Origin: Lysobacteraceae bacterium
Lineage (GTDB): Bacteria > Pseudomonadota > Gammaproteobacteria > Nitrococcales > AK92
Length of the DNA: 64,000 nucleotides
Reading direction: 5' to 3'
Assembly: GCA_012523465.1 (NCBI GenBank)
Contig: JAAYIK010000016.1
Location: 1-64,000, forward strand
The notes under the pieces were generated by a model. That model did not search any database and was not told where the DNA came from. It worked only from the letters and a program-made list of their open reading frames with translations. The position numbers and the translations under genes are program-made. Shown here piece by piece: positions 7,722 through 64,000 of the stretch. Numbering within the stretch: the stretch's first letter is position 1; each line of letters opens with the position of its first letter.

Positions 7722-8194
7722 TCAGATGTAGCGAACGTCGATGATCTCCAGCTCGCGGTCCCCGCCGGGGGTCTGCACCTGCACCACATCGCCCGCCTGC
7801 TTGCCGATCAGCGCGCGCGCGATCGGCGACGTGAAAGAAATCAGGCCCTGCTTGATGTCGGCCTCATCCTCGCCGACGATCTGATAGGTAAACTCCTCGC
7901 CAGTCTGCTCGTCGACCACGTCGACCGTCGCGCCGAAGACGACGCGCCCGCCGGCGTCGATAGTGGTGACATCGATCACCTCGGCGTTGGAGAGCTTGGA
8001 CTCGATCTCGGCAATGCGGCCCTCGATGAAGCTTTGCTGCTCCCGCGCGGCGTGGTACTCGGCGTTCTCCTTCAGATCACCGTGTTCGCGTGCTTCCGCG
8101 ATCGCCTCAATGATGCGCGGCCTGGCCTCGGTTTTGAGCCGATGCAGCTCAGCCCTCAGCTTCTCCGCACCTCTGACGGTCAGCGGAACCTTGG

Positions 8195-8198
<4 letters not shown>
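7722..8198 (-). CDS. greA: Transcription elongation factor GreA
   Basis: GreA rescues backtracked RNA polymerase by stimulating cleavage of the nascent RNA 3' end through the secondary channel. The 158-residue protein has the N-terminal coiled-coil hairpin with the acidic tip ([17 protein letters not shown], containing the conserved Asp-Glu pair) and the C-terminal FKBP-like domain with [14 protein letters not shown]. Length is standard. Its ATG overlaps the carB stop codon by 4 bp (ATGA), so it is the third gene of a carA-carB-greA operon, an arrangement seen in other gammaproteobacteria. Confidence 0.97.
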
Positions 8199-11425
<3,227 letters not shown>

Positions 11426-11465: not shown

Positions 11466-12608
11466 TCATTTCGCCGCCGCCATGAGCTCCAGGAAGCTGG
11501 CGATCTGCGCTGCAGGCTGGCGCGGATCGAAGCCCGCCACGGGCTCGCCCTGGAAGCCAAGCACCGGTCGCTGCCCGTGGCGGAACCCCTGCAGGCTGTG
11601 GTCGAACAGCGAGCGGTGCGTCACCTGCAACTCTGCCGGCAGCGTGGCCTCATCCACGGCGAAGCCATAGCTCAGACGGACGATTTCCACCCGCTTGGTG
11701 ACCAGGTCTTGGACGGGATGGTTCGCGCCATGGCGACCGAGCTTCATCTTGAACGTGCTGGCCCCACAGGCAAGCGCCAGCAGGGAGTGGCCCAACCCCA
11801 TTCCCAGAATGGGCAAATCCTGCGCCAGCAACTGGCGGACCGTGTCGATGGCATAGCCGCAGGCGGCAGGATCGCCAGGACCGCCGGCCAGCACCAAGCC
11901 ATGGGGCTGCAGCACCTGGATTTCTGCCACGCTGGTGCGTGCCGGCAGCACCGTCAGACGGCAGCCGGCATCGACCAGCTGCCGCAACAGGCTGCGCCGA
12001 ACGCCCAGGTCGAGCACCACCACGTGCCAGGGCAGACTGGCCGGATCACGCTCGGGACTGTCGGCCACCCCGTCACTCAGCTGCCAGCTTCCCCGCAGCC
12101 ACTGGTACGGCTGCGCGGTCGACACCTCGGCTACCAGATCCCGGCCCTGCAGACCGGCAAAGCCGCGCGCCTGGGCCACGGCCGCATCAGGGTCGACGGC
12201 AGCGCCGACCATGATGCAGCCGCGCTGCGCACCGCCTTCGCGCAGCAGGCGGGTCAGCTTGCGGGTATCGATGCCGTCGATTGCCACCACGCCGTTGGCA
12301 ACTAGATAGTCCTGCAGGCTCTGCTCGGCGCGCCAGCTGCTGGCGATGAGGGAGAGGTCGCGAGCGCTCAGCCCACTGGGCTGCGCCGCCGCCGATTCCG
12401 CCGCCACGGCCGACATGCCGACGTTACCGACGTGGGGATAGGTCATCGCGACCAGCAGGCCGCGGTAGGCAGGATCGGTCAAGACGCTGGCATAGCCGGC
12501 CGCATTCGTATTGAAGCAGACCTCGCCGACCGCAAGGCCAGCTGCACCGAGAGAACGTCCGTGAAATAGAGTGCCGTCTTCAAGGGCAAGTATGGCAGGC
12601 GTATTCAA
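11466..12608 (-). CDS. carA: CarA-like carbamoyl-phosphate synthase small subunit with glutaminase site lost
   Basis: CarA normally hydrolyses glutamine and channels ammonia to CarB. This 380-residue protein aligns end to end with E. coli CarA: ATP-linked N-domain including [17 protein letters not shown], the [11 protein letters not shown] motif, and a class I amidotransferase domain from about residue 195. The catalytic triad is absent. The nucleophile elbow reads [12 protein letters not shown] (Gly271 where E. coli has Cys269, Ser275 for the Gln of GHQ). The His/Glu pair of GHPEA has become GEPVA (Glu355, Val357). QNHGFAV has become LSYGFAV, and the Ser of FNTS is Asn. The frame is intact and conserved elsewhere, so I infer a retained structural or tunnel subunit of an ammonia-using enzyme rather than a decaying gene. 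Confidence 0.93.
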
Positions 12609-12838
12609 GCGACCTCCTGCTCGTGCGCGCGCAAAAACGGGAGGGGATCCAAGGATGCCCTCCCGCCGCTGTAAGGGTTCGTGGGAACGAAGGATCGCGG
12701 AATTCTACTGGCCCTGGCCCGCAGTGTCCATCCTGCAATTGCGATCGCGCGGCCTGCCGCCGCCGGCTTGCCGCCCTCGCCTCCCCATCGATACAATTGG
12801 CGGCCCGTTTGGTTGGCCAAAAATGGGCATTCATACAG

Positions 12839-59735: not shown

Positions 59736-61791
59736 TCAGCGCACCCGGAACGGCACGGCCGCGGTCTCCAGCACGGCGCCGTCCTGCTGGCGGATGCGCG
59801 CCTGCACCCAATGCCTGCCCCGCTGCAAGGGCCATAGCAGGCCGTCGCCGCGGCCGACCGAAACACCATTAACCAGCCATTCCACCTGTGCCTGGGCCGG
59901 CGCGGTATCGAGTCGGAAGGCGAAACGCTGGCGCTCCGGCGGCAGGCGCGGATCCAGCGCCAGCTGTAGCTCCCGGGAGGGCTGCCGGATGCGCGGCAGC
60001 GGGGCCGGAGCCTGCTGCGGCGCAGACGGCTGCGGCCAGCGCGACGGCAGGAACCACTCCGGCCGGCTGGGGCAGCTGCCATCCGCCGGCAGGCCGCTGT
60101 CGCGGCAGATCATCAGCTGCACCAGCGTTGCATCCATGGGCAGCGGCGCCGGCGACGTGCGCCGGTTGAGCTCGGCGAAGATGGCGCGCGCCACCGGCAC
60201 TGCCCCGCAGGCACCACTGACTCCCTGCATAGGCGCGCCGTCCAGGCGCCCCAGCCAAACCCCCACCGTATAGCGGTGATTGAAGGCCAGCACCCAGGCA
60301 TCGCGGTAATCGCTGGAGGTGCCGGTCTTGATGGCGGTCTCAACCGGGAACTGCATGAGTCCGCCGGCGCCGAACTCCAGGCGCCGGGCGTCGGGATCGG
60401 CCAGGATGTTGCCGATCAGCCGGCTGACCGGCCGCGCCAGTACGGCGCGGGCGGGCAACGGCGACTGGTCACGCAGTAGCCGTAGCGGCCGGTACTCGCC
60501 ACCGTTGGCCAGCGCGGCAAAGGCCGTGGTCAGCTCCAGCAGCGTCACCTCGGCATTGCCCAGGGCTAGGCCGTCGCCGTAGTAGTCGGGATGCTGGCGC
60601 AGGCCATGAAAGCCCAGTTGCCGCAGGCGATCGAGGAAATCGGCAACGCCGACGAACTGAATGGCGCGCACGGCGGGGATGTTCAGGCTGTTGCCGAGCG
60701 CATCGCGCAGGCGCACGGAGCCGTAATGGCTGCGGCTGTAGTTGCGGTAGGCATGCTGGCCCTGACCGATCGCCTCCCTCAAGGGCGCATCCTCCAGCAG
60801 GGTGGCTGCGGTCCAGCCACGCTCCAGCGCCAGGGCGTAGAGGAACGGCTTGAGGGTGGAACCGGCCTGGCGCGGCACCGTCACCGCATCATAAGCGCTG
60901 CCCTCGCCCGGGGCATGGGCATTGACCCAGGCCAGCACCTCACCCTTCGCGTGATCGACCACCAAGGCAGCAGCGTTGCGCACCCCATAGTCGGCCAGCT
61001 GGCGCCGGCGGGGCCCGCAGCATAAGCGGTGCCTCGGCCAGGTGCCGGCGCTCGACCGCATCGAGCAGCCCCGCGCGCCACATGCGCTCGGCCAGGTTGC
61101 GCAGCTGCGGCCGCAGGCGGTCGGGATCGGCGTGCGGATCGAGCCGGCTCGGCGCCCGCACCAGTACCGCCAGAGCCAGCATTTCCTGCGGCGCCAGCGT
61201 GCTGAGGTCGCGGTCGAAGTAATAGCGCGCCGCCTGCGCCACGCCGCGCCGCCGGCCGGCGTAGGGCACCTGGTTGAGATAGAACTCGAGGATCTCGGCC
61301 TTGCTAAAGCGCCGCTCCAACCGCCTGGCTTCCCAGCCTTCCAGCCAGCGCGACCACAGCGTGCGCGGCCGCGGCTGCAACATACGCACCACCTGCTCGC
61401 TGATGGTGCTGGCGCCGCGCACCGCCCGTCGCGCCCGCAAATTCTGCCAGACCGCCGCCAGCCGGGCGCGCCAGTCGATGCCTCGGTGGGCGAGAAAGCG
61501 CCGGTCCTCGGCGACGATGAAGGCCTGCTGCAGCAGCAGCGGGATTTCGGCCAACAGCCGCCGATCGTGGACGTTCCAGTCGTTCTCGTAGGTCACGGTA
61601 AGCGGCACGCCGTGGCGATCGGTCAGCTGCGCCTTGCGGATGTCCGCCGCCGCCGGCGGCAGCTCGGTAGGCAGCGGCCGCAGGCCATGCAGAGTCGCTG
61701 CCGTCAGCAGCAGACCGCCGCCCAGCAGCGCCGCTGCCAGCACCGCCGGCAGCCGGCCTGCCCACAGCTTACGGCTTCGGCTCGCCGGCAT
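59736..61791 (-). pseudogene. pbpC: Penicillin-binding protein 1C, split by frameshift/deletion
   Basis: PbpC joins a GT51 glycosyltransferase to a transpeptidase. The first 260 or so codons give a good GT51 half: N-terminal membrane anchor (about 12-32), AFIVAEDRRFLAHRGIDW, GASTISEQVVRML, and QVPYAGRRRGVAQAARYYF. After EAPLMLRAPPAP the reading shifts frame, and the transpeptidase half continues in another frame from QLADYGVRNAAALVVDH, through PRQAGSTLKPFLYALAL, NSLNIPAVRAI, KTGTSSDYRDAW and a C-terminal BiPBP domain. About 35-40 linker residues (the family TLD..LQ region) are also missing, so an out-of-frame deletion near 61.01 kb is likely. The first frame runs on to a stop at 60940. It overlaps the macroglobulin gene by 23 bp. 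Confidence 0.88.
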
Positions 61792-64000
61792 CCCCCTCTC
61801 CCACCAGCAGCCGGGCCGGGGCCGTCCTGCCAAACACGGCCGGGGCATACATCTCCTCGGCACGGGCCGACGGCACCAAGAATTCACCATCGGCGATGAC
61901 CTGCGCGGTGTAACTCAGGTGATAGTTGCCCGCTGGCAAATAGTCGGCGTAGAAGCGCACCGCGTCATGGCGCAGCTCCTGGTGATGGAAGCTCCAGCGC
62001 CCAGCGTCATAGCCGATCCAGTCGGAATGGCGCAGATACCAGGAGCCGCCAGCGGCCGGGAACGCGGCCGCTACGGCATCCACCGTGGATGCGGTGGCGA
62101 GCTTGCGGTTGACAGGTTCCAGCCCGCCAGGCACCGGATCGTCCACCACCACGAAATGCCGCGCAGTGGGCAGCGAGAGATACAAGTCCACGCGCACCAG
62201 CTCGCCACGGCGCAGCTGCAGTGGCGACGCCAGCAGCTGCCATTGGCCGGCGCGGCGCACGCTGTATTCGCGGCGCAGCTCGATTCCCGCGTTGGCCGCT
62301 TGCTGCGCCCTGGCCGGCAGCGCATGGCTCAGCCGCACGCCGTAGTAAAGACGCCCCTGCCCTTGATGTTCCAGCCGCAGGCGGCGCTGGCGACCGGCGT
62401 CCTCCGACCGCATCGGCAGGACCAGCTCCTGGCTTGGGTCGCGCGATGATTGGAAGCGGACCACGGCGAGCGGTTCGCCATCCAGGCTGACGCGGGCCTG
62501 CAGCCCGATCGGCCCCTGCTCATAGGCCCGCCCATAGGCCAACAGCGCTTGCAGACAGAACAGGTTCTCCTGGGTGTTCTCCCAGTGATCCCGGCTGCCA
62601 CGCGCCTCGACAATGGTGCCCACCAGCTGCGACGGCAGCTCGGCCGCCAAGGCGGCTCCATCAGGCTTCGCCGCCAACCCGACCAGGGCTGACAGCACAG
62701 CGCATTGGCTGCGCAGCGGCGTGGCCAGGATGCGCACGTAGCCGTCATCCAGCGCCTCGTTGAAGCTCACCCTGCCGCCGTCCTGCACGGCCCTGGCGAG
62801 AATGTACTGCAGCACTTCGCGGCGCAGCTCGGCGGTGTCCTCCACCGCCAGCAGCGCTTGCAGGTAATGGGCCTGCCCGAACAAGCTCATAGCCGGCACG
62901 TGCCGGCGATAACGCTCCAGATCGGCGCGGCTCAACCGACCCTGCTCGGCCAGCGCGGCCAGCGCCACCGCCCGCACCGTGGCGGCCATGCCGGGGCTAT
63001 GGAGCTCGGGCTGGAAGTCGCGCCGCAGCAGGGTGTCCAGATAGTCCAGCAGGCGCTGCTCGACCAGCGCCGGCACCGTCTCCCCGGCGGCCCGCAGCCA
63101 GTTGAAGGCCAGCGCGGTGTAGGCGCTGAGATAAGGGCTGGCATAAGCGTCCTCGGCGCGGAAGAAGGCCATGCCGCCGTTGGGCGCCTGGAAGGAGGCG
63201 GCCTGCTCGAGGACGGCCGCTGGCAGCGTGGCCGCCTCCGGCCAGTCCAGCGCGGGCGGCAGATAGTGGCGCAGCGCCTGGTACTGCGCCGCCAGTACCG
63301 CCCGACCGAGCAACTGCTCCCAACCACCGTAGGGATAGTCGCACAGGTAGCGGAAGACGCCGTCCAGATTGCCGATGATGGTCGGCGACAGCACCACACT
63401 CAGGCCGCCGGCGGCAGGCTCGAACTCGGCCGGATAATGCAGCGCCTGCACGATGCTACCGCCGTCGAGACTGCCGTGGTTGGCGGCGGTATGCAGGCTG
63501 ACCGCAGGCCGCACCAGCAGCTCGTGGCGCAGGGCGTCGCGCTCGGCGCCGGCCGCCGCGCTCAGGGTGATGCGCAGCTGGCCGGCCTGGCGCGACTCCA
63601 GCGGCAGATAAACCGTCTGGCGCTGGTACGGCAGCAGCCGCAGCCGGCTTTCGAGCGCTGCCGGCGCCAGCACTTTGGCCGGTCCTTCCACCTGCCAGCG
63701 CAACCCGAACTCGCGCTCCCGGTCACTGCGATTCATGACGCTGAAGCCGGCCAGGAAACGGTCCCCGCTGCGCAGCAGATTGGGCATGACCGGACGGATC
63801 TCGATGGGTTGATTGACCTGGAAGCGGGTCTGCCCCAGGCCGAAGCGGTCCTTGCCCGTGGCCCCCAACACCAGCACCCGCCAGCCGGTCAGATTGTCCG
63901 GGGCGTCGAATTTCAGCCGCGCCATGCCCCTGGCGTCCACCGCCACGGCCGGGTTCCAGTAGGCCACGTAGCGTTCGATGCGACGGGCATCGACGTCGCC
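61769..64000 (-). CDS. Alpha-2-macroglobulin-like protein (YfhM type), partial
   Basis: Bacterial macroglobulins are large periplasmic lipoproteins thought to trap foreign proteases and are typically paired with pbpC. The window holds the C-terminal 743 residues; the N-terminus lies beyond the right edge. Visible are the A2M family block YWNPAVAVDARGMARLKFDAPDNLTGWRV (two adjoining stretches), the helical toroid thioester domain and the C-terminal receptor-like domain (LPAGNYHLSYTAQVIADGEF). Where YfhM has the thioester motif in YPYGCLEQ, this protein has YPYGGWEQ: the Cys is Gly. It overlaps pbpC by 23 bp. Confidence 0.92.
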   Translation of the reverse strand, partial: GDVDARRIERYVAYWNPAVAVDARGMARLKFDAPDNLTGWRVLVLGATGKDRFGLGQTRFQVNQPIEIRPVMPNLLRSGDRFLAGFSVMNRSDREREFGLRWQVEGPAKVLAPAALESRLRLLPYQRQTVYLPLESRQAGQLRITLSAAAGAERDALRHELLVRPAVSLHTAANHGSLDGGSIVQALHYPAEFEPAAGGLSVVLSPTIIGNLDGVFRYLCDYPYGGWEQLLGRAVLAAQYQALRHYLPPALDWPEAATLPAAVLEQAASFQAPNGGMAFFRAEDAYASPYLSAYTALAFNWLRAAGETVPALVEQRLLDYLDTLLRRDFQPELHSPGMAATVRAVALAALAEQGRLSRADLERYRRHVPAMSLFGQAHYLQALLAVEDTAELRREVLQYILARAVQDGGRVSFNEALDDGYVRILATPLRSQCAVLSALVGLAAKPDGAALAAELPSQLVGTIVEARGSRDHWENTQENLFCLQALLAYGRAYEQGPIGLQARVSLDGEPLAVVRFQSSRDPSQELVLPMRSEDAGRQRRLRLEHQGQGRLYYGVRLSHALPARAQQAANAGIELRREYSVRRAGQWQLLASPLQLRRGELVRVDLYLSLPTARHFVVVDDPVPGGLEPVNRKLATASTVDAVAAAFPAAGGSWYLRHSDWIGYDAGRWSFHHQELRHDAVRFYADYLPAGNYHLSYTAQVIADGEFLVPSARAEEMYAPAVFGRTAPARLLVGEGDAGEPKP

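Follow-up and report, generated by a model that had tools for sequence, protein, structure and literature searches.

A natural CarA with its glutaminase residues replaced beside an intact CarB: a candidate ammonia-dependent carbamoyl phosphate synthetase in a gammaproteobacterium

Carbamoyl phosphate feeds the synthesis of arginine and pyrimidines. The carbamoyl phosphate synthetase (CPS) of E. coli cannot hydrolyse glutamine without Cys269 and His353, and it accepts ammonia only at very high concentration; the review that reports this treats all bacterial CPSs as glutamine-dependent (PMC6245113). CPS variants with a blocked or perforated tunnel show normal activity with external ammonia, and human CPS1, whose residues have been used to name the CPS ammonia gate, uses free ammonia: its old tunnel is blocked by Gln318 in place of E. 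coli Gly293, and an alternative entry is possible (PMC4655335). Our literature search, which covered open-access papers and is weak evidence to that extent, found no described bacterial CPS with a dead glutaminase. Here we describe a bacterial carA–carB pair in which the glutaminase site of CarA is replaced.

The carA–carB locus and the replaced glutaminase site

The window analysed is a stretch of 64,000 nucleotides (positions 1-64,000, forward strand) of contig JAAYIK010000016.1 from Lysobacteraceae bacterium, assembly GCA_012523465.1 (GTDB Nitrococcales; AK92). The genome of this gammaproteobacterium is a 3.0 Mb draft in 35 contigs, 100% complete with 1.16% contamination. The locus contains the following features:

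11466..12608, minus strand: carA, CPS small subunit with a predicted inactivated glutaminase domain (pseudo-glutaminase), from alignments to E. coli and relatives, TIGR01368 and a fold model
12613..12618, minus strand: AGGAGG ribosome-binding site of carA, 4 nt upstream of the TTG start (sequence)
8195..11425, minus strand: carB, CPS large subunit with an ATG start, intact by ORF, alignment and profile evidence
7722..8198, minus strand: greA, in a 4-nt overlap (ATGA) with the carB stop

The carA gene begins at a TTG, which E. coli and relatives use as well, and runs through 380 codons with zero internal stops; carB follows 40 nt downstream. A longer TTG ORF of carB reaching 11560 was rejected as an artefact, and the ATG was retained as the carB start. 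Codon adaptation was 0.58 for carA, a level resembling that of folP and rlmN within the window, versus 0.73 for carB. Elsewhere in the window (59736-61890, minus strand), two ORFs (61890..60940 and 61061..59736) overlap in different frames and resemble one frameshift-split penicillin-binding-protein/transglycosylase (PbpC-like) gene, which adjoins an alpha-2-macroglobulin-like ORF.

We mapped the CarA residues by alignment to E. coli CarA (PDB) and to relatives; identity to the E. coli protein was 51% in the structure alignment. The following replacements were found by alignment:

11796..11798, minus strand: codon 271, GGG (Gly), for the E. coli nucleophile Cys269; Cys in 142/142 readable other loci
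11544..11546, minus strand: codon 355, GAG (Glu), for His353; CAA (Gln) in the congener G001
11538..11540, minus strand: codon 357, GTG (Val), for Glu355, the third triad residue
11784..11786, minus strand: codon 275, TCC (Ser), for Gln273, a glutamine contact
11667..11675, minus strand: codons 312-314, Leu-Ser-Tyr, for Gln310-Asn311-His312 (QNHGF to LSYGF); Asn-His in 143/143 readable loci
12468..12470, minus strand: codon 47, GCC (Ala), for Ser47, a glutamine contact
11526..11531, minus strand: codons 360-361, Phe-Asp, for Pro358-Gly359, a wall of the CarA ammonia tunnel

In addition, SNGPGD is changed to AGGPGD in the alignment. In E. coli CarA, Ser47, Gln273 and Asn311 contact glutamine through their side chains, and Gly359 lines the ammonia tunnel; Gly241, Gly243, Leu270, Gly313 and Phe314, which make mostly backbone contacts to glutamine, are unchanged in the window CarA. 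The complete Cys-His-Glu triad of the glutamine-hydrolysing CPS small subunit is missing (Gly271, Glu355 and Val357 instead). A reading made earlier from the sequence only had reported these three replacements together with Ser for the Gln of GHQ and LSYGF for QNHGF, and the alignments with E. coli and relatives agree with it on every one of them; the changes at Ser47, Pro358, Gly359 and SNGPGD were absent from its list. Its further item, Asn for the Ser of FNTS, was dropped and carries no weight, because the position is not conserved and relatives have Ala or Gly there.

The glutaminase of the window CarA is nearly certainly dead. With the replacements observed and E. coli enzymology as the guide, this CarA should be unable to bind glutamine, to hydrolyse it or to channel it. 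The protein nevertheless scored 342.5 bits against TIGR01368, the glutamine-hydrolysing CarA model (cut-off 307.35; congener 466.1), so that it passes an NCBIfam model named "glutamine-hydrolysing" yet, judged by its residues, fails the chemistry that defines it.

Distribution of the changes and evolution of CarA and CarB

Active-site motifs were read in 145 loci representing 122 distinct C-terminal sequences, mainly from Gammaproteobacteria, with other phyla hardly sampled. The nucleophile Cys was present in all 142 readable CarA loci and HPE in 141 of 143, both exceptions being one gene of the congener G001 (L003/L040). This separately sequenced congener, the only one compared, keeps the Cys (TGC) and QNHGF but carries Gln (CAA) at His353 and Ser at Pro360, and its CarA is probably also glutaminase-impaired. 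Among the readable loci, the survey across relatives that the sequence-only reading had proposed yielded no other CarA with a lost Cys, and a lost His only in the congener. In a class sample of 369 genomes, 320 had a CarA at E<=1e-40 and 309 matched the DNA pattern QNHG[FY]...HPE. The low-scoring or non-matching CarAs were variants at neighbouring residues (QNHS, QNHN, QNHC) or fragments, and among those read, as far as genes were found, none had lost the Cys or His. Among genome contigs, a search for further carriers of a dead CarA returned three distant CarAs, all intact, and viral contigs held no carriers.

Several class members stood apart in other ways. No CarA was found at E<=1e-40 in 49 of the 369 genomes, some of them 99-100% complete; the DNA pattern is matched in a few of these (G083, G145, G265, G333), which may carry a divergent CarA, and CPS may be absent from others. 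The CarA genes of G027 (L152), G081, G296 and G310 contain an in-frame TAG or lie in two pieces, with active-site motifs intact where readable, and are probably draft-assembly errors or pseudogenes.

The window CarA is broken at 27 of 138 columns that are invariant in 20 relatives, compared with 0-4 for each relative left out in turn. The broken columns lie mostly in 36-55, 241-242, 268-275, 292, 312-314 and 350-369. The earlier reading had described the rest of CarA as conserved. The changes are indeed densest round the glutamine site, but the whole protein is fast-evolving: identity to the congener, whose CarA is still the closest, is 57% for CarA versus 87-89% for CarB, while the CarAs of the congener and of a further relative, G003, share 73%. 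In FastTree trees, the tip branch of the window measured 0.83 in the GATase domain (G003: 0.10), 0.52 in the N-terminal domain (G003: 0.22) and 0.17 in CarB (G003: 0.10). CarA has changed at several times the rate of CarB, and the acceleration is specific to CarA and densest in its GATase domain. Constraint remains, with 16-25% of invariant columns changed compared with 59-72% of columns that are less than 60% conserved. The AlphaFold model of the window CarA (pLDDT 87.8) has a TM score of 0.94 to E. coli CarA (1a9x_B), so the fold is predicted to be retained; pLDDT drops below 50 only in the altered tunnel loop (358-364).

CarB, described earlier as conserved, does keep its catalytic and gate residues and is intact. 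Its identity to G003 is 83%. The residues at E. coli R129, R169, E215, E299, N301 and R303 (catalytic) are present, as are the ammonia-gate residues C232, A251 and A314, given here in E. coli numbers for the gate named in CPS1. Among 540 invariant columns, ten are broken; nine fall within residues 100-400 (hypergeometric p 3e-4, for a region picked after seeing the data), the domain that receives ammonia and faces CarA. These CarB changes are possibly a co-adaptation with the dead CarA. The nine positions span residues 106-344 of the carboxyphosphate domain, and R265C is among them.

Ammonia supply and the explanations weighed

A second CarA, which would have undone the earlier reading if intact, was looked for in the same genome and none was found. 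No second CarB was found in it either, only distant ATP-grasp paralogues of 24-27% identity. The genome has two carbamoyltransferase-family genes, which need carbamoyl phosphate. For carbamate kinase, an alternative source of this compound, no match exceeded the curated cut-off of 358 bits, the two weak matches reaching 28 and 20 bits; as a source of ammonia, no urease was found in the genome. GATases other than CarA were also read in this genome; from sequence context they resemble anthranilate synthase component II, CTP synthase, GMP synthase and one further class-I GATase, and they keep Cys and HPE. A general loss of glutamine use was therefore rejected: glutamine is still used elsewhere, and the change is specific to CPS.

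In E. coli, damage of the type seen in this CarA abolishes the use of glutamine and spares that of ammonia: glutamine hydrolysis requires Cys269 and His353, and tunnel-blocked variants have normal activity with ammonia (PMC6245113, PMC4655335). The earlier proposal of an ammonia-dependent CPS with a structural CarA is supported by this type of lesion, by the single CarA, by the intact CarB, by the absence of an alternative source over the cut-off and by the two genes that need the product; ammonia use in vivo and a structural need for CarA are its inferred parts. The CarA-specific acceleration, the constraint that CarA retains, the Gln of the congener and the Cys and His kept by the other GATases also speak for it. 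On balance we consider it probable that this is an ammonia-dependent CPS that retains CarA as a scaffold, a pseudo-glutaminase, and resembles vertebrate CPS I in function but evolved independently, and that the substrate is most likely free ammonia. External NH3 would enter by a path bypassing the old glutaminase site and react with carboxyphosphate in CarB; the carbamate would be phosphorylated as usual and the product would supply the two carbamoyltransferases, with CarA persisting as a structural or allosteric scaffold. Points against this reading are that the E. coli enzyme needs very high ammonia (PMC6245113), that neither urease nor another special ammonia source was found in the genome, and that carA evolves fast and is less well adapted in its codons than carB.

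His353 may have been the first residue to be lost, in the ancestor of the genus, as the congener carries Gln at that site; the loss would then have been completed in the window species. The codon path may have been His (CAY) to Gln (CAR) to Glu (GAR), one base per step; the Gln of the congener and the Glu of the window fit this path, which two genomes cannot prove, and the order of losses is uncertain because the nearest relative is only 57% identical. We lean slightly towards a stepwise history in which a bacterial genus made its CarAB ammonia-only, first through the His and then through the nucleophile, glutamine pocket and tunnel wall, and CarA became an obligatory non-catalytic subunit, convergent with CPS I.

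Rapid change and weaker codon adaptation, both seen in carA, would also be expected of a gene that is being lost. CarA would then be a decaying relict without a role and CarB alone would make carbamoyl phosphate from NH3, as the E. coli large subunit alone is reported to do in vivo (Rubino 1987, cited in PMC6245113). The acceleration extends over the full length of CarA, and codon adaptation is below that of carB, as such decay would have it. However, a neutral gene at 43% divergence is expected to carry stops or frameshifts, whereas this carA is an intact 380-codon ORF with an AGGAGG, 80% of its invariant positions are kept, its substitutions still track column conservation, and its predicted fold matches that of E. 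coli CarA (TM 0.94). We regard a relict CarA as unlikely.

It is quite improbable that another glutaminase or GATase (TrpG/PabA-like, GuaA, PyrG or a free glutaminase) docks on or near CPS and supplies ammonia in trans. Other intact GATases do exist in the genome, but those read look like standard household enzymes, no extra CarA-like GATase is present, and the CarA tunnel that such a partner must use is itself altered (Gly359 to Asp). We hold it to be very improbable that CarA has been repurposed, its degenerate pocket binding another ligand and regulating CarB; the CarB domain facing CarA has changed too (nine of the ten broken positions), but CarA shows no positive sign of a new site, and the model has its lowest confidence at the tunnel loop. 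To an artefact of sequencing, assembly or binning we give almost no credence: the genome is a draft in 35 contigs, but the codon changes are many, independent and in frame with zero frameshifts, which makes sequencing error not credible, carA shares a contig with its carB, CarA is closest to that of the congener, the genome is 100% complete at 1.16% contamination, and the separately sequenced congener also lacks the catalytic His.

Comparison with known carbamoyl phosphate synthetases

If the preferred reading of an ammonia-dependent CPS is true, an ammonia-only CarAB in a natural bacterium would mean that in vivo a cell can do without the CarA half of the long tunnel system, would parallel in bacteria the origin of the vertebrate urea-cycle enzyme, and would run against the glutamine dependence stated for all bacterial CPSs (PMC6245113). 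The congener, with its Cys kept and His lost, would be a natural intermediate in which to study the loss of glutaminase by an amidotransferase. For annotation the pitfall is that a dead CarA passes a curated model named 'glutamine-hydrolyzing'.

Among household amidotransferases, NAD synthetases have ammonia-using and glutamine-using forms (PMC3376133). Their glutaminase is a nitrilase-like domain of its own, joined to the core of the synthetase by fusion, whereas in the window a class-I GATase subunit is kept but apparently dead. With E. coli CarAB (PDB 1a9x, 1jdb) the window CPS shares the subunits, the fold, the operon order, and the catalytic and gate residues of CarB. The E. coli CarA hydrolyses glutamine, whereas in the window the triad and most other residues known to serve this reaction are replaced. 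The E. coli laboratory mutants C269S (PDB 1c30) and G359F (PDB 1m6v) represent the same two kinds of lesion, a removed nucleophile and a filled tunnel wall; they are engineered single changes, whereas in the window both kinds occur together in nature, with many more.

Human CPS1 (PDB 5dot/5dou), like the window CarA, has lost the nucleophile Cys (Ser294 in human) and keeps a dead glutaminase-like domain (PMC4655335). The tunnel lesion differs, being Pro358-Gly359 to Phe-Asp in the window as read from the sequence. CPS1 is a fused mitochondrial polypeptide that depends on N-acetylglutamate and serves urea synthesis, whereas the window CPS consists of a bacterial CarA and CarB, serves arginine and pyrimidine synthesis and has lost all three triad residues. 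Because its carA and carB encode separate subunits and its origin is independent, the window CPS is not a member of the CPS I family.
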